64,000 nucleotides of DNA from an uncultured bacterium (GTDB lineage Bacteria; Desulfobacterota; GWC2-55-46): assembly GCA_905339405.1 (NCBI GenBank), contig CAJPGC010000004.1:1-64000 (forward strand), read 5' to 3'. This document shows, piece by piece, positions 19,706-28,720 of the stretch; position 1 is the stretch's first letter, and the number at the start of each line of letters is the position of its first letter. The notes under the pieces were generated by a model. It did not search any database and was not told the origin of the DNA. It was given only the letters and a program-made list of their open reading frames with translations. The position numbers and the translations under genes were made by a program.

Positions 19706-19740
19706 CAAAAAAAAGGGGCGCTGTTTTCAGCGCCCCTTTG
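19706..19740 (-). terminator. Terminator after htpX
   Basis: GGGGCGCTG (19715-19723) pairs with CAGCGCCCC (19728-19736) around TTTT. On the minus strand the stem is followed by a run of eight T. It lies about 17 bases after the htpX stop. Confidence 0.92.
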
Positions 19741-20637: not shown

Positions 20638-20693
20638 AAAAAAGACCCTTACCGCGGAAATACATTAGACAATGGATTCCCCCGGTAAAGGTC
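20638..20693 (-). terminator. Switchable terminator of the htpX riboswitch
   Basis: On the minus strand GACCTTTACC (20693-20684) pairs with GGTAAGGGTC (20653-20644) with one G-U pair, followed by TTTTTT (20643-20638). The same GACCTTTAC segment also closes helix P1 of the aptamer, so the two structures exclude each other. Metal binding would favour P1 and allow read-through into htpX. Confidence 0.85.
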
Positions 20694-20775
20694 TCGCTGT
20701 TAGACTCGCTAACCGGTGGCGCCGGGCCCTAAGGCCGTGCTGACGGCCGCGCACCGTTAAGCTACTCCCCTTTAC
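20684..20775 (-). ncRNA. yybP-ykoY (manganese) riboswitch upstream of htpX
   Basis: The minus strand carries the defining elements of the yybP-ykoY family: GTAAAGGGGAGTAGC at the 5' side (20775-20761), a GGCCGTCAGCACGGCC arm with the conserved GTCA, a GTTAG/CTAAC hairpin, and GCGAGACCTTTACC at the 3' side. P1 forms between GTAAAGG and CCTTTAC. Two further helices (TAACGGTG with CACCGGTTA, and the GGCC arm) complete the four-way-junction plan. Members sense Mn2+ and are ON switches. It begins right after a strong promoter and ends in a terminator switch. Confidence 0.93.
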
Positions 20776-20782
20776 GGCTAAA

Positions 20783-20811
20783 ATATTAACAGAATAATGC
20801 CCCAAAGTCAA
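20783..20811 (-). promoter_or_regulatory. Sigma-70 promoter of the riboswitch-htpX transcript
   Basis: On the minus strand TTGACT (20811-20806) and TAATAT (20788-20783) are separated by exactly 17 bases. The predicted start is near 20776, the first base of the aptamer. Confidence 0.82.
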
Positions 20812-20836: not shown

Positions 20837-23614
20837 TCAGAGACTCCTGCGGTTGGCGATAACGCCCTTTACCGTCCTGCTGAGGTCGATTATCCTGTAA
20901 GGCTTGGCGATTACCGCGCTGAAGCCGAACCTGGCGTAATCGGACATTATGTCGTCGTTCGAGTAGCCGCTGGAGACTATGACCCTGGCCTCCGGGTCCA
21001 GCTCCAGGAGCCTTCTTACGGCCTCTTTACCGCCCATCCCGGCCGGTATCGTAAGGTCCATTATGACCGCGTCGAAAGGCCTGCCGGCCGTCATCTCCTG
21101 GCTGTATTTTGCCAGCGCCTCATGGCCGTTCCCGGCGAACTCAACCTCGTACCCCAACTCTTCGAGTATCGTCGCGGCCGCCTCCCTTACCATCTGCTCG
21201 TCATCCATCACGAGTATCCTGCCCTGGCCGCGCTCGAGCTCCTCTTCGACGCCCTCCCTCTCGGCCAGCGGTTTTCCGGTGACGGGAAGGTATATGCTGA
21301 AGGTCGTCCCAGCCCCGGGCCGGCTTTCCAGCTCGACGTAGCCGTCGTGGTTGCGTATGATCGAGTAGACGGTCGCGAGCCCCAGGCCAGAGCCCTCTCT
21401 TTTAGTGGTGAAGTACGGGTCAAAGACCTTGCCGATGTTCTCCTCTTCGATTCCCTTGCCGGTGTCCGAGACCTGGATGCGCAGGAACCTGCCGCCGCGC
21501 CCTTCGCCCTGGCCTTCCACGACCGAGGCCGATATCTTTATGATGCCGCCCTCGGCCATTGCCTGGTCCGCGTTAATGACGAGGTTGTGAATTACCTGGC
21601 TTATCTGCCCCTCGTCGGCCTCTACGGCCGGGAGGCAGCCGGGCATGGCCACCTCGCACTTTATGTTCGAGCCCCTCACGGAAAAACTCGCCGACTCCCT
21701 TATTATGGCGCTCAGGTCCACGGCCCTTTTCAGGGGGAGGCCTCCCTTCGAAAACGTGAGGAGCTGCTTTGTCAGGTCCTTTGCCCTGTGCGCCGCGTTG
21801 TCGGCGTCGATGAGGGGCTTGAATACCTTCGCGTCTTTTTCAGAAAGCAGCCTTGCGACCGAAAGGTTGCCGATTATCGCGGTGAGGAGGTTGTTGAAGT
21901 CGTGGGCTATGCCGCCCGCGAGCGTCCCGAGGGATTCGAGCTTGCTGGCCTTCAGGAGCTCTTCTTCCTTCTTTTTCCTTTCGGCGATGTCGCGCACCAG
22001 CAGTATCGCCGCCCTCTGACCATGCCAGAGCGTCTTTGAAGCAGCCATCTCCACAGGCACCAGCGCCCCGGCGGAGGTCTTGAGCTGGACCTCCTTGTGG
22101 CAGTACTGTCCGGAATCGAGAGATTCCCTGAGCCCGGGGCAACCCGTAACCTCCGCCACTTCGCCGAAGCCCATCTTGAGGAGACCTGCCTGAGCGCAAC
22201 CGGCCATCTCTGAAAAACGCCTGTTGGAGTAGATTATCCTGCAGTCACCCTCGAGAGAAACTATCGCTATGCCGTCGTTCGCGTTCTCCGAGAGGGCGCG
22301 GAAGTTCTGCTCGCTTTCGCGGAGCTCCTCCTCCATGCGCTTTCTTTCGGTAGTCTCCCTGAACGCGGCCAGAACGGCGGGCTGCTCCCCCCATGTGGTC
22401 GCAACAGTCCTCGCCTCGGCGTAAGCCTTGCCCCCGTCCTTCATCACCTCCACGTCCTTCGTGCCCAGGCCGCTGAGGAGGATGAAGAACTGCTTGCCTG
22501 CCAAATCCTGATACTTCGCGCCGAAAAGCTCCTCGGCGGCCCTGTTCATGAAAAACACGGTGTTGTCGCGTCCGGCCACGACTATCGCGTCGGCGCTCGT
22601 CTCCAGGAGCCGCCTGTAGTTCGCTTCCGACTCCTGGAGCTGCCTTGTCCTCTTTAATACCCTTTCCTCGAGGTTCTCGTTGAGGAGCTGAAGCTCCTTC
22701 TGGGTAGCCGTGAGCTCCCTGTTCTGCTGCACGGCGTTCTCATAGGTCGAAAGGAGGAAGGTCAATATCTGGCGCTTGCCTGATCTTATCCTGTACCTCT
22801 CCCCGGCGAAGCTCACCTCTATGCCGGAGGTGCCGTCCTCGTCCTTTCCCGCGGAACTGAGGAGCGCTTCTATCTTCGAAACAAGGCTGTGCTCCTCGAA
22901 AGGCTTGGTGAAAAACGCGTCAGCCACGACAGACGCCCTCTGGACGATATCTTTCCTGTCCATGAGAGAGGTTATGAGCACTACCGGCACGGCCCGGAGC
23001 GTTTCGTCGTGCTTTACCCTGTAGGCGAGCTCGTAACCGTCCATGACCGGCATGACTACGTCGCTTATTATCAGGTCTGGCGGCCTCTTGGCGGCAATGT
23101 CGAGGCATTCCTGCCCGTTCGAGGCTATTTCGACCGTATAACCCCTGCGCTCGAGCATGAACTTGAGCTGCTCGGCCTGCGTGGGGCTGTCTTCTGCGAT
23201 TATTATGCGGACGCCCTTTGCCCCGGCCTCCCTCTCCTTCCTGGCGGAGAGCATACCGTCTATCCTGGCGAGAAGGGCCTGGACGTTATACGGCTTCACG
23301 ACGAAGTCGTCGGCCCCGCACTCCATTCCCCTTACTACTTCCCTGGGGTCCGACAGCTGCGTCAGGAGTATGACCGGGACGGACTTCAGGCCGTCTCTTG
23401 CCTTCATGGACTTGCAGAACTCGAAGCCGTCCATCTCCGGCATTACGATATCGGCAAGCACCAGGGCGGGCTTTTCCTTTTCAAGCGCCTCAAGGGCTTC
23501 CTTGCCGCTGAACGCCAGGCGGCAGGCGTACCCGGCCTGCTTCAATGTCTCCTCTATCTGGCTCGCCTGGGTCGGGCTGTCCTCGACTACCAGTATGAAT
23601 CCCTTCAGGTCCAT
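20837..23614 (-). CDS. Hybrid kinase REC-REC-PAS-PAS-HK-REC at the end of the chemosensory operon
   Basis: Soluble 925-residue protein. Two tandem receivers come first (about 5-125, VVEDSPTQASQIEETL with phosphoacceptor in LADIVMPEMDG; about 137-262, IAEDSPTQAEQL with ISDVVMPVMDG). A coiled coil, two PAS domains (about 330-430 and 435-555), HisKA with GGIAHDFNNLL, HATPase (GKGIEEENIGKVF, GSGLGLATVYSI) and a third receiver (MDDEQMV, IMDLTIPAGMGG) follow. It starts 19 bases after cheB and takes the place that a diguanylate cyclase (WspR) holds in Wsp operons. The tandem N-terminal receivers would accept phosphate from CheA, and the kinase would pass the signal on. No DNA-binding or GGDEF output is present. 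Confidence 0.9.
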   Translation of the reverse strand: MDLKGFILVVEDSPTQASQIEETLKQAGYACRLAFSGKEALEALEKEKPALVLADIVMPEMDGFEFCKSMKARDGLKSVPVILLTQLSDPREVVRGMECGADDFVVKPYNVQALLARIDGMLSARKEREAGAKGVRIIIAEDSPTQAEQLKFMLERRGYTVEIASNGQECLDIAAKRPPDLIISDVVMPVMDGYELAYRVKHDETLRAVPVVLITSLMDRKDIVQRASVVADAFFTKPFEEHSLVSKIEALLSSAGKDEDGTSGIEVSFAGERYRIRSGKRQILTFLLSTYENAVQQNRELTATQKELQLLNENLEERVLKRTRQLQESEANYRRLLETSADAIVVAGRDNTVFFMNRAAEELFGAKYQDLAGKQFFILLSGLGTKDVEVMKDGGKAYAEARTVATTWGEQPAVLAAFRETTERKRMEEELRESEQNFRALSENANDGIAIVSLEGDCRIIYSNRRFSEMAGCAQAGLLKMGFGEVAEVTGCPGLRESLDSGQYCHKEVQLKTSAGALVPVEMAASKTLWHGQRAAILLVRDIAERKKKEEELLKASKLESLGTLAGGIAHDFNNLLTAIIGNLSVARLLSEKDAKVFKPLIDADNAAHRAKDLTKQLLTFSKGGLPLKRAVDLSAIIRESASFSVRGSNIKCEVAMPGCLPAVEADEGQISQVIHNLVINADQAMAEGGIIKISASVVEGQGEGRGGRFLRIQVSDTGKGIEEENIGKVFDPYFTTKREGSGLGLATVYSIIRNHDGYVELESRPGAGTTFSIYLPVTGKPLAEREGVEEELERGQGRILVMDDEQMVREAAATILEELGYEVEFAGNGHEALAKYSQEMTAGRPFDAVIMDLTIPAGMGGKEAVRRLLELDPEARVIVSSGYSNDDIMSDYARFGFSAVIAKPYRIIDLSRTVKGVIANRRSL

Positions 23615-23633
23615 GCCTCTGCCTCTGCCTTTT

Positions 23634-24722
23634 TCAAGCCTTTTCCCTCCCCCTCACGATGCCCTCTATTTTCGAGGGTATCCGTTCGGGCGCAAGCACG
23701 TAATCCACTCCCCCGAGCCTGGCGGCCTCACCCGGCATTCCGTAGACGACCGAGCTCTCCTTGTCCTGTATGACCGTCACCCCGCCCCTGTCTCTTATCC
23801 TCTTCATCTCCTCGGCACCGTCCTTGCCCATGCCGGTAAGGAGCACCGCGACGACCTCGCCGCCGAATGATTCGAGGGCCGAGCGGAAAAGAAATGATAC
23901 CGACGGCTTTATCCCGTTCTCGGGGGCGTCCGTGCTGAGGAAGAACCTGCCCGAGGGGTCCACGCCCATGTGATGGTCGTCAGGGGCGAAGTAGACGTGT
24001 CCGGCAAGCGCCCGCTCTCCGCCTTTCGCGAGGCTTATGGGCAGGCTTATGACGGCCCCGAGCCATTCGAGCATCCCCTCGATAAAGCCCTTTGTAATAT
24101 GCTGCACGACGAGTATTGGCGCGGGAAAGTCTGCCTTGAAGCCCGAGAGCACCGTCTGGAGGACGGGGGGGCCCCCGGTCGACGCGCCTATGAGGACCGC
24201 CTTGATGTTCCTCGCCTCTCCCATATGCTCTTTGGGCGCGAGCGGCAGGCGCCTGGTCCTTCGCCAGCGGCGCACCACCCTCACCTCGCTCATGAGCTTT
24301 ACTGTCTTTATGAGCTCAAACGTAGACCTCTCGTAATCGGCGTGCCCGAAGCCGGGCGGCTTTTCGACTATGGCCAGGGCGCCGGCTTCCATTGCGCGGA
24401 AGGACTGCTCCACCTGGTCCCTGTTGTAATTGGCGGAAACTATCACGATGGGGACCGGGTGCGTCTCCATTATCCTGCTCGTTGCCTCATGCCCGTCCAT
24501 GCCGGCCATCCTGATGTCCATCGTTATGACGTCAGGCCTGGACGCGCTCACGAACTCGACCGCCTCTTCGCCGCTTGAAGCCTCTCCTATGACCTTGATG
24601 GAAGGGTCTGACTCGAGTATGTGCCTCAGGTGCTGCCTTGCTACGATTGAATCATCTACTATGTATACGCTAATCAATTCCGTTCTGCCCGTTTCTCTGC
24701 CGCCCGGCATTGTCCTTACCAC
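23634..24722 (-). CDS. cheB: Chemotaxis-type methylesterase CheB
   Basis: Response-regulated glutamate methylesterase acting on the receptor. It has a receiver (VYIVDDSIVARQHL, ITMDIRMAGMDG) and a C-terminal esterase domain with catalytic triad Ser in IGASTGGPP, His in VVQHITKGF and Asp in LLTGMGKDGAEEM. Starts are uncertain: GTG at 24722, ATG at 24710 (AAGG just upstream) and TTG at 24677 are all in frame, and the receiver proper begins right after the last. In the Wsp system the counterpart is WspF. It lies between cheA and the hybrid kinase. Confidence 0.93.
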   Translation of the reverse strand: MVRTMPGGRETGRTELISVYIVDDSIVARQHLRHILESDPSIKVIGEASSGEEAVEFVSASRPDVITMDIRMAGMDGHEATSRIMETHPVPIVIVSANYNRDQVEQSFRAMEAGALAIVEKPPGFGHADYERSTFELIKTVKLMSEVRVVRRWRRTRRLPLAPKEHMGEARNIKAVLIGASTGGPPVLQTVLSGFKADFPAPILVVQHITKGFIEGMLEWLGAVISLPISLAKGGERALAGHVYFAPDDHHMGVDPSGRFFLSTDAPENGIKPSVSFLFRSALESFGGEVVAVLLTGMGKDGAEEMKRIRDRGGVTVIQDKESSVVYGMPGEAARLGGVDYVLAPERIPSKIEGIVRGREKA

Positions 24723-24793
24723 GAAGGGCTATTACCGGTAAAGCGGCCTTTCCTTGATTTATGCCGTCTTCGCGGCTCTCTTTTTTACCGCGC

Positions 24794-27070
24794 TCAGGCG
24801 GTAAGCCGTTTTATTATCTCAATTAAGTTGTTCTGGTTGAAGCTGCTCTTTATCATATAGGCGTTCGCGCCAGCCTCTATGCCCCTCTCGCGGTCCTCCC
24901 TCGTCTCGAGCGCGGTCACGAGCACCACCGGCAGCTCGGAGAGCTCCCTGTCCGCCCTGACCCTTGAGGTGAGCTCAAAGCCGCTCATCCTGGGCATCTC
25001 TACGTCCGAGACGAGTATGTCGAACTTTTCCGTCTTCATGAGCGTCCACGCCTCTACCCCGTCGATGGCCGTCATGACGTCGTACCCGGCCGTCTCCAGT
25101 ATGTTCTTGAGGAGCATCCTCGAAGTGATGGAGTCCTCGGCAACGAGCACGGACCTCTTTTTTGCGGCCCTCGGCGGCTGGGCCGCTATAACCGCTCCGC
25201 CGCCGGATTTCACCGCCGACCTCAAAAGGTCGGGGACGTTCAATATGGGCACCGGCTTTCCGGTCCCCAGCACGGCGGCCCCGGAGATGTTCCGCACCTT
25301 CCTCAGCTGGGGGCCAAGCCCCTTCACCAGGACGTCCTCCTCGCCGAAGACCTCGTCGACCCCGAAGACTATCTTTTTTCCACCGGCTGAAAGAACGAGC
25401 ACCTGTATGCTGCCTCCGGCTTCGACCCTGGCCGGAAGCCCCAGCACCGGGGCGAGCCAGACGAAAGAGTACGGCTCCCCTCCTATGGTCACAGTCTCCC
25501 TGTTCTCAGCCATGCCGAGCTGGTCTTTCCTGACCCTCAGCGTCCGTTCGACGCCGGAGGTCGGCACGATGAACGACTGGTTTCCCGCGCCGACGAGTAT
25601 GCCCCTGAAAGTCGCGACAGTGAGGGGGAGGAGCATGCTGAAAGAGGTCCCGGCCTTCGAGGAACTGACAGTGACCGACCCGCCGAGCCCTTCGACCTTC
25701 TCCCTGACTATGGCGAGCCCCAGGCCTCTTCCGGAAATTTCCGTTATTATCGGGCTCGTTGAAAGGCCCGAGAAGAATATGAGCGAGAGCGCCTCTTCAG
25801 GGCCGATGCTGGAAGCCGCCTCGGGGCTTATTATGTCGTTCTTCACGGCGGCCGCCTTGACCCGGCCGACGTCTATGCCGCTTCCGTCGTCCACCACCTT
25901 TATCTCGGCCGTGTTCCCGTCGGCATGGGCGGCGGATACCGTTATCCTGCCCTTCCTGGGCTTTCCTGCGGCCTCCCTCTCGGAGGGGCGCTCTATGCCG
26001 TGGTCGACGCAGTTCCTCACGAGGTGTATGAGCGGGTCTTTTATCTCCTCGAGTATCCTTCTGTCTATCTCCAGGCTCTCGCCTGTTGAGACGAGCTCGG
26101 CCTCTTTCCCTCTTTTCCTGGAAATGTCCCTCACCAGCATGGGGAAAGCCTCCATCACGCTGGAGAAGGGAAGGAGCATCGTCTTTTTCGTGTCTTCAAG
26201 TAGGCCGTCAATCATGCGCCCCAGCTCCCATGAATGGCGGCGCGCGGACTTCGACAGCGCCCTTGCTGAGGCCTCAAGGGAGTGCGCGCGCTTTTGCGCC
26301 TTGACCAGGAGCTCCTTGAGCCCCGGCGGCGCGCTCAAACGTCCTGCGCCTGCGAGCTCGGCCCGAAGGCCTTCGGCCATAGCCAGGAGCTCGGAGATCC
26401 TTTCAGACTGTATGGAAGCCTCTGACTTGAACGGCAGCATCTCTTCGGCCTCTGCCAGAAGGCTCCCGAGCCTTTCCGCCGGTATCCTGACTGTCCCGGA
26501 CGGGTCACGGAGACGCTCCCTCACGGGGCTACTGGGGGCTTCATCAACTGCCGCGCTCGTGGGCGCGGCAGGCGGCGCTTCGGCCGTCATCGCAGGGCCG
26601 GGTTCCCGGGGCTCCTCGATCGTCCTCGGGTCGAACTTCGCGTCGAAAGAGGCAACCGGCGAGCCTCCTGCCGACAGCCTCTCGAGCTCGGCCACGAGAG
26701 AAGAAAGCTGCTCGGCTGGAACGCCGTGCTCCTCAGGCCCGGCGGATATGGCGCTCCTGACCGTGTCGACCGCAAGGTAGAGCGTGTCGAAGAGCTCGCG
26801 CGACTGGTTTACCCGCCTTACCTTCCACTGGGCGAAGATGCTTTCGAGCGCCTGGCAGACCGATTCGACCTCGGCCAGGTTTACGGCCCTGGCCGCGCCT
26901 TTAAGGCTGTGGGCCTCCCTGAAGATCGTCTCGACGACCTCCATCTGGACCTCGATGGGCGGCATGCGCTCGAGCTCGGTCAGACACGCGCCCATGGTGA
27001 CGACGTGCTCCATCGCCTCGGCCTTGAATGTCGCCAGCAGCCTCTTCCTGAATTCCTTTTCCCTTTCCAT
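24794..27070 (-). CDS. cheA: CheA-type kinase fused to a receiver (WspE-like)
   Basis: Central kinase of the array, 758 residues. The HPt domain (about 1-110) has phosphoacceptor His54 in AHSLKGAARAV. A proline/alanine-rich linker (about 140-190) follows, then a dimerisation helix pair, an HATPase core (NCVDHGIERPSER, VVDDGSGID, GRGLGLAIV), a CheW-like domain (about 500-630) and a C-terminal receiver (about 640-758; VAEDSITSR, LVSDVEMPRMSG). A separate P2 domain is not apparent. The CheA-REC fusion and length match WspE and FrzE-like kinases of alternative-function chemosensory systems rather than flagellar CheA. Confidence 0.94.
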   Translation of the reverse strand: MEREKEFRKRLLATFKAEAMEHVVTMGACLTELERMPPIEVQMEVVETIFREAHSLKGAARAVNLAEVESVCQALESIFAQWKVRRVNQSRELFDTLYLAVDTVRSAISAGPEEHGVPAEQLSSLVAELERLSAGGSPVASFDAKFDPRTIEEPREPGPAMTAEAPPAAPTSAAVDEAPSSPVRERLRDPSGTVRIPAERLGSLLAEAEEMLPFKSEASIQSERISELLAMAEGLRAELAGAGRLSAPPGLKELLVKAQKRAHSLEASARALSKSARRHSWELGRMIDGLLEDTKKTMLLPFSSVMEAFPMLVRDISRKRGKEAELVSTGESLEIDRRILEEIKDPLIHLVRNCVDHGIERPSEREAAGKPRKGRITVSAAHADGNTAEIKVVDDGSGIDVGRVKAAAVKNDIISPEAASSIGPEEALSLIFFSGLSTSPIITEISGRGLGLAIVREKVEGLGGSVTVSSSKAGTSFSMLLPLTVATFRGILVGAGNQSFIVPTSGVERTLRVRKDQLGMAENRETVTIGGEPYSFVWLAPVLGLPARVEAGGSIQVLVLSAGGKKIVFGVDEVFGEEDVLVKGLGPQLRKVRNISGAAVLGTGKPVPILNVPDLLRSAVKSGGGAVIAAQPPRAAKKRSVLVAEDSITSRMLLKNILETAGYDVMTAIDGVEAWTLMKTEKFDILVSDVEMPRMSGFELTSRVRADRELSELPVVLVTALETREDRERGIEAGANAYMIKSSFNQNNLIEIIKRLTA

Positions 27071-27082
27071 CCTGCCCCGGGG

Positions 27083-28720
27083 TTACACCTTGTAGTGGCG
27101 GACCATTTCCTTGAGCTTGCCGCCTATCTCCTGGAGGTTCCTTATCGTCATCTCGACCTGCTTGGTGCTAGCGGCGTTCTGCGTCGTGGCCTGCTTTATG
27201 TTGTTCATTGCCACGGCGACCTGGTCCATGCCTATGAGCTGCTGCTGGTTCGAGGCCGCAATCTGTATGACCGCCTGAGAAGCTTCCCCGATGCTGCTCG
27301 CCAGCGCCTGTATCGCCTCCCCGGTGCCCGAAGACTGCCTTACGGTGGCCTCGACCGCCTTGCTGCCGCGCTCGGTCGCCATGACGGCCGCGCTGCTAGA
27401 TTTCTGTATGTCGTTCAGTATGGAGCGGACCTGTTTGGTCGCCTGCTTGGAGAGCTCGGACATGCTCTTTATCTCCTGGGCCACTATCATGAAGCCCTTG
27501 CCGTGCTCCCCGGCTTTCGAAGCCTCTATGGAGGCGTTCACGGCCAGGAGGTTCGCCTGCTCTGCGATGTCGTCCACCGCGGCTATTATCTCGCCTATGG
27601 CCTGGTTGTGCTCGGCGAGCTTCACTATCGTCTCGGCTATGTACTCGACCTGCTCCCTTATGTTGGTGATGCCCTCGAGCGTGTCCTTCACGAGCCTGGT
27701 GCCGTTCTGTGAAACCTGGGCCGCGCTGAGCGCTATCTCTGATACGTGCTTCGCCTTCTGGGAAGAGACGTTGGCGGTCTGCTTGACCTCTTCGACCGTG
27801 GTTGTGGTCTCGGACACTGCCACGGCCGTCTGCTCCGTCCCGGAGGCCAGCTCGGCGGTCGTCGCGGCTATCTCGTTCGATGAACTCGCCAGCACGCTTA
27901 TGGCCTCGGTCAACTCGACAGTCTGCCTTTTGAGCCGGGCCACCATCGCGCCGAACGTATCAGAGAGGACGCCGACCTCGTCCTTCCTGCCCAGCGAGCG
28001 GATGTCGACCGTGAGGTCGCCGGAGGCGACCCTTCCGGCGGCGTCAGATATCTCTTTCAACGGCCTTGCGATAAGCCTGTTGAGTATAACGGCCACCAGC
28101 AGGCTGACCAGGACAGCCGCCGTCCCGAGAACAATGTACAACGTTATATATCTTCCAGATGCCTGAGAAGATTCTTTTATGTGGCCGATGCCGTTCTCCC
28201 TCATTATGTTCTCGATTTTCGAGATTATGGTTGCCATCCTGCCGTACCGTTCGTACTGGGCGCCCATAGCCATTGCCATTGCCTGTTCTTTTTTTCCGCT
28301 ATAAATCAAGGGGATGAGCTGTCTGTCCCTGGCTTCCTTATATTCGGTAAAGTTCCTTTCAAGCTCTTCGAGCAGCCTGGTTATCTCAGGATTGTGCCGG
28401 TTCCGATCGTAAAGGGTCTTGAAAACGGAAGCTATCTCGGCGTTCGATTCTTTTATTTCCGCGTGCTGAGCGTCCTTTTCGCCCCTGCTCTCCACCCCGG
28501 ACATCGTCAGGAGCGCGACCCTTGAGCCGTCCATCTTTGATTTGAGCGTGAATATGCCGACGCTGTTGGTGAACTCGTCGTTAAATATCTCATCCCTTGT
28601 CTTTTCCATGGAAGCTATGTTGCTTATGGCGGCCACGATGACTATCGTGAGAAGGACAATCACCAGGCCGAAGCCCATGAAGAGTTTTGCGCGGGTCGAA
28701 AAATCGTGGAACCAGCTCAT
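27083..28720 (-). CDS. Methyl-accepting chemoreceptor
   Basis: Membrane receptor of 545 residues. TM1 (about 10-33) and TM2 (about 190-212) enclose a roughly 155-residue four-helix-bundle sensor, followed by HAMP (about 212-265) and a long coiled-coil signalling domain. The hairpin tip is in AEQANLLAVNASIEASKAGEHGKGFMIVAQEIKS, split around the turn. The usual IRxLAE segment reads IKSMSEL, so adaptor contacts may be adjusted. Gln/Glu pairs for methylation are present in the signalling helices, consistent with adjacent cheR and cheB. AAGGAGG lies 9 bases upstream of the ATG. It is the WspA counterpart. Confidence 0.93.
   Translation of the reverse strand: MSWFHDFSTRAKLFMGFGLVIVLLTIVIVAAISNIASMEKTRDEIFNDEFTNSVGIFTLKSKMDGSRVALLTMSGVESRGEKDAQHAEIKESNAEIASVFKTLYDRNRHNPEITRLLEELERNFTEYKEARDRQLIPLIYSGKKEQAMAMAMGAQYERYGRMATIISKIENIMRENGIGHIKESSQASGRYITLYIVLGTAAVLVSLLVAVILNRLIARPLKEISDAAGRVASGDLTVDIRSLGRKDEVGVLSDTFGAMVARLKRQTVELTEAISVLASSSNEIAATTAELASGTEQTAVAVSETTTTVEEVKQTANVSSQKAKHVSEIALSAAQVSQNGTRLVKDTLEGITNIREQVEYIAETIVKLAEHNQAIGEIIAAVDDIAEQANLLAVNASIEASKAGEHGKGFMIVAQEIKSMSELSKQATKQVRSILNDIQKSSSAAVMATERGSKAVEATVRQSSGTGEAIQALASSIGEASQAVIQIAASNQQQLIGMDQVAVAMNNIKQATTQNAASTKQVEMTIRNLQEIGGKLKEMVRHYKV

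Follow-up and report, generated by a model that had tools for sequence, protein, structure and literature searches.

The htpX gene of the window, the 64-kb stretch of DNA analysed here, lies behind a leader that is very probably a yybP-ykoY (Mn2+) riboswitch of the transcriptional ON type, with the Mn2+ ligand and the ON direction being those expected from the family. Both the yybP-ykoY class and its antitermination mechanism are already known; what is new is the htpX target and its recurrence. We found no text tying htpX to a Mn riboswitch in the literature searched, although two primary papers of 2015 may carry a mention.

Architecture of the htpX leader and its transcription unit

Read along the minus strand from 20811 to 20638, the leader opens with a sigma-70 promoter, continues with an entire yybP-ykoY (Mn2+) aptamer and closes with an intrinsic terminator, ~40 nt from htpX (Table 1). 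An earlier note had proposed this arrangement from the sequence, and each element was recovered on the minus strand: the promoter hexamers with their 17-nt spacer, the GTCA-bearing arm together with the L1 blocks, and a terminator hairpin whose 5′ arm, GACCTTTACC, is the 3′ strand of aptamer helix P1. The L1 strands (GGGGAGUAGC and GAGACC), whose absence from relatives was to have counted against that proposal, are conserved in the alignments, as is L3 with its invariant adenosine. By alignment with the literature, the L3 arm would contain the A expected to contact Mn2+.

Table 1. Features of the htpX leader and transcription unit, in window coordinates.
Feature	Coordinates	Strand	Basis
Sigma-70-type promoter, TTGACT-N17-TAATAT	20783..20811	-	Sequence and scan
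yybP-ykoY (Mn2+) aptamer, P1 to P1	20685..20775	-	Model R3 match; covariation among relatives
P1.1 switch helix 5′ strand, GTAAAGG	20769..20775	-	Sequence; partner 20685-20691; compensatory P1 changes
L1 strand, GGAGTAGC	20761..20768	-	Almost invariant in alignment
L3 arm, CCGTCAGCACGG	20735..20746	-	Alignments and sequence; family knowledge (PMC6754395)
P4 hairpin, GTTAG...CTAAC	20699..20713	-	Sequence and model R3
3′ L1 strand and P1 3′ strand, GCGAGACCTTTAC, common to terminator	20685..20697	-	Alignment, sequence
Intrinsic terminator hairpin, rival of P1	20644..20693	-	Fold -32.1 kcal/mol, z=-6.6; also in relatives' leaders
Terminator T6 run	20638..20643	-	Sequence
htpX, zinc membrane metalloprotease, 280 aa	19757..20599	-	Pfam Peptidase_M48 E=8e-38; NCBIfam NF002826
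Terminator 3′ of htpX	19712..19739	-	Scan; makes htpX a one-gene unit

Folding energies single out the terminator (z=-6.6), followed by the full leader (z=-3.8); the aptamer alone is of unremarkable stability (z=-1.0). When the growing transcript was folded, ligand-free and as secondary structure only, P1 was present at ~96 nt and was displaced by the terminator from ~128 nt, a succession that fits the needs of an antitermination switch. The P1 switch helix is thus found in competition with the expression platform, both through the shared GACCTTTACC strand and in the folding of the transcript. An RNAalifold consensus on a MAFFT alignment mispaired P3 and was dropped, and for this reason a single-sequence fold supplied the structure, with realignment by the model as a second step. 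Fold and model agree on three helices, with the P2 hairpin absent from the window aptamer, which therefore departs from the four-way junction of the crystal structures. Because the proven E. coli alx element likewise folds without an obvious P2, we did not take P2 as defining.

The regulated gene had been described as that of a zinc membrane protease, an identification that Pfam and NCBIfam bear out: NF002826 scores 402.5 bits against a cut-off of 369, with the start codon at 20599-20597 picked by homology. The HExxH motif and the downstream glutamate are retained in all 40 aptamer-linked HtpX proteins examined. Beyond htpX stands a strong terminator (19739-19712), and rimO follows ~680 bp past it, indicating that htpX itself is the target. 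The earlier statement that no transporter lies nearby is true of the window; in relatives, htpX often adjoins GDT1/UPF0016 or cation P-type ATPase genes. Beside the htpX unit, on the same strand (20837-28720), we observed a signalling cluster that by sequence reading encodes a hybrid histidine kinase/response regulator and CheB-like, CheA-like and methyl-accepting chemotaxis proteins.

Class membership in covariance models

The earlier note had proposed a covariance search with the Rfam yybP-ykoY model. This search left the window unmatched: RF00080 of Rfam 15 gave no match even at E<=10 and none genome-wide. At E<=1 the same model also failed to recover the leader of E. coli alx, a proven member, and at the gathering threshold it found nothing in the E. 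coli region containing mntP; it scored the terC aptamer of the window's own genome at only 9.4 bits, and its cut-off was reached in no genome of these relatives. Since RF00080 misses proven alx, and mntP at the gathering score, its miss of the window is uninformative and constitutes no evidence against membership. For the same reason, surveys relying on RF00080 will undercount the class. Weak Rfam matches of microRNA families on the terminator stem were set aside as chance, owing to the long hairpin.

We turn to three purpose-built models. Model R1, trained on 12 aptamers of the yybP-ykoY class with the window's included, matches E. coli alx (E=1.8e-8) and mntP (E=0.0015), so that a lineage-derived model recovers a core common to both leaders and the window; unlike htpX, the alx and mntP targets are Mn exporters. 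Model R2 had the window and, in part, htpX leaders in its training set. Model R3 was built from 43 aptamers lying ahead of terC, GDT1/UPF0016 or P-type ATPase genes; the elements of E. coli alx and mntP were among them, htpX leaders were not. R3 gives the aptamer of the window 70.6 bits (E=9.4e-20), beyond chance, and across the 64-kb window finds no second credible match (runner-up 8.2 bits, E=6.2). It also matches all 25 other htpX leaders tried, each at 44.9 bits or more. R2, with the window in its training set, supplied the alignment for the rows of R3 and for A5; R3 is accordingly blind to the window's sequence and not fully to its structure.

Covariation supports the proposed pairing. 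Double changes occur in 25 of 32 pairs in alignment A4 (124 cells against 31 when shuffled). Alignment A5 has them in 28 of 32 pairs (294 cells, shuffles 86), a signal that is lost when the pairing is slid by 1 to 3 columns. In sequence and structure the leader matches both the proven members and the aptamers of exporter genes.

R1 finds two aptamers in the window's genome, the second at G000:C1:5425-5523 ahead of a TerC-family gene. The genome also carries a second htpX-like gene (G000:C42:44475-45311, 60% identical), at which the genome search returned no aptamer match.

Spread and evolution of the aptamer-htpX pairing

A survey of htpX leaders in relatives, proposed as a further check, was strongly positive, with the pairing recurring in two phyla. 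Within the window's family the htpX form of the aptamer occurs in eight genomes spanning two genera, all of which keep P1, L1, L3 and the terminator, retain the promoter and vary their P3 pairs compensatorily. Across 40 aptamer-htpX leaders, a promoter stands at the matching position in 35, and in 36 a pattern match finds a terminator that uses the P1 strand again. Several of the aptamer matches are distant, scoring 42-62 bits, with HtpX proteins 59-65% identical to the window's. In four loci (L094:2752-2960, L100:2732-2950, L174 and L175) the htpX aptamer has an insert of ~100 nt in its P4 loop. The insert has terminal inverted repeats (CCCCGTTAGAAT...ATTCTAACGGGG) and resembles a palindromic mobile element of small size, with P4 stem sequences still flanking it on both sides.

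The 297 genomes of the window's phylum yielded 44 aptamers in 39 genomes. Eleven of the 44 lie directly upstream of htpX (eight among 38 newly classified loci, together with G000, G008 and G017), and the other targets include ATPase genes (10 among the 38 loci, plus G054) and GDT1 (8). The second sample, 246 genomes from the phylum of the Nitrospirota record G098 searched with R2, yielded 54 aptamers in 42 genomes, 17 of them with a same-strand htpX starting 53-108 nt further on. Where the downstream gene was readable, the remaining Nitrospirota targets were P-type ATPase (9), beta-carbonic anhydrase (7 of the 54), GDT1 (6), a Zn-ribbon protein (4), UPF0182 (2), TerC (1) and single others. In the samples of both phyla htpX is therefore the commonest or joint commonest aptamer target, with the qualification that R2 was trained partly on htpX leaders and that these fractions may lean towards htpX. 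In Nitrospirota loci, htpX is often the first gene of a cluster that also holds a Zn-ribbon gene, GDT1, a DsbA-like gene (so named from sequence reading) and a P-type ATPase; these neighbours link htpX to Mn efflux as well.

Several targets that are not transporters were observed alongside. A beta-carbonic anhydrase gene (Pfam Pro_CA) lies directly 3′ of the aptamers at L176, L177, L190, L192, L195, L196, L207, L229 and L052; our literature search found no paper joining yybP-ykoY aptamers and beta-carbonic anhydrase. The gene of a 101-aa Zn-ribbon (PF13453) protein follows aptamers at L168, L170, L172, L205, L206 and L234, and in several clusters it also separates htpX from GDT1 or the ATPase. 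Genes of UPF0182 membrane proteins are downstream at L180 and L227, and one of UPF0114 at L193. Locus L093 (G105:C52) carries three aptamers in ~6.8 kb of a single contig; the genes behind them are those of HtpX, a P-type ATPase and beta-carbonic anhydrase.

In a tree of 119 HtpX proteins, the window's protein and all eight of the two genera fall in a well-supported clade (99/99) of mostly aptamer-bearing Nitrospirota proteins; the remaining HtpX of the window's family are placed elsewhere and have no aptamer. The aptamer label changes five times on this tree against ~34 in shuffles, the locus set being enriched for aptamers so that proportions on the tree are not frequencies. A separate, less well-supported aptamer-bearing group holds seven HtpX: six proteins of other families in the window's phylum, and that of L043. 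The simplest reading of these placements is that the aptamer-htpX unit was transferred horizontally, with at least one other lineage carrying the pair; the position of the window's HtpX in a mostly Nitrospirota clade suggests that its unit was probably imported. Locus L043 (G001:C42:2410-2530) belongs to the window's own genus and has a different htpX, and its aptamer is of a subtype that carries an additional P2-like hairpin. The L043 HtpX is almost identical to that of L240, from another family, pointing to recent transfer or a binning error.

Proposed mechanism, alternatives and possible physiological role

The window leader resembles the transcriptional form of the class (RF00080) typified by L. 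lactis yybP, in its L1 strands GGGGAGUAGC and GCGAGACC, its L3 arm with GUCA, and a P1 switch helix whose 3′ strand doubles as a terminator arm (PMC11087558, PMC6754395). It differs in controlling a protease in place of a transporter, in lacking P2, which seems to leave a three-way rather than the crystallised four-way junction, and in falling below the Rfam threshold. In L. lactis and X. oryzae, Mn2+ bound between L1 and L3 stabilises P1.1 and thereby prevents the terminator (PMC11087558, PMC6754395). The shared-strand layout, in which the P1 3′ strand is the terminator arm as in these systems, makes activation by Mn2+ through antitermination the expected direction. At low Mn2+, the stronger downstream hairpin would capture the P1 3′ strand (GACCUUUACC) and transcription would end at the U-run. 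Docking of L1 on L3 by Mn2+ would instead hold P1.1, block the terminator and let RNA polymerase enter htpX.

Three other readings bear on the ligand, the target and the present function of the leader. Alkaline-pH control of E. coli alx is also known, and PMC10550928 cites a paper on it. This, with a window junction that lacks P2, could suggest that the switch in this lineage chiefly senses a signal other than Mn2+, such as pH or another divalent ion. We consider this unlikely, as the L1 and L3 core is conserved and the same aptamers in these phyla also target the Mn/cation exporter genes terC, GDT1 and P-type ATPase. Nor does the aptamer seem to serve a neighbouring exporter gene with htpX as a mere passenger at the head of the operon, a notion encouraged by several Nitrospirota loci that run htpX, Zn-ribbon gene, GDT1/UPF0016 and P-type ATPase. 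The window's htpX has its own terminator, with rimO lying beyond; the close relatives L083 and L084 have no exporter adjoining htpX; and elsewhere the partner of htpX is an unrelated gene, purE being one example. These observations make a passenger role quite unlikely.

Import of the unit, as the clade of the window's HtpX suggests, also raises the prospect of a vestigial element, which would keep its sequence homology but would have lost its switching after horizontal transfer of htpX. The retention of P1, L1, L3, terminator and promoter in the eight family genomes, and the compensatory nature of their P3 changes, make such decay very improbable. A Mn2+-responsive ON switch acting on htpX thus remains our preferred account of the leader.

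Under this preferred account, high cytoplasmic Mn2+ would lead to production of HtpX, a zinc-dependent inner-membrane protease, along with TerC from the genome's second aptamer copy. HtpX would most likely either degrade membrane proteins that become damaged, mis-metallated or jammed when Mn is in excess, or remove an unwanted metal importer. Counting against the preferred account, HtpX itself is not a metal transporter. A protease nevertheless makes sense in light of two findings in B. subtilis: MeeF, a TerC-family Mn protein, has both HtpX and FtsH as co-purifying partners at the secretion machinery (PMC10550928), and at high Mn the membrane protease YqgP degrades the Mg importer MgtE (reviewed in PMC9334652). 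The YqgP/FtsH response is likewise the deployment of a membrane protease against Mn stress, which for the window is a proposal; it differs in involving another protease family, activated at the protein level and with no riboswitch (PMC9334652). That the cell answers Mn stress with more HtpX, and so guards the quality of its membrane proteins, as the earlier note had suggested, is plausible and agrees with the published co-purification of HtpX and a Mn protein of the TerC family (PMC10550928). Chances are about even for the broader view that the Mn riboswitch regulon of two phyla has taken up HtpX repeatedly and as a core member, and that Mn2+-triggered membrane proteolysis forms a standing arm of Mn homeostasis, alongside the non-transporter targets beta-carbonic anhydrase, Zn-ribbon and UPF0182.

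The Mn riboswitch has so far been known as a switch for metal exporters. That a protease leads, or shares the lead, among its targets in samples of two phyla suggests that these cells handle Mn overload also as a membrane-protein problem, and the recurrence of this pairing indicates that overload probably triggers a clean-up of membrane proteins besides metal export. HtpX, whose physiological triggers are poorly known, would gain in Mn2+ a concrete inducing signal, one in keeping with its co-purification, at the secretion machinery, with a Mn protein of the TerC family.
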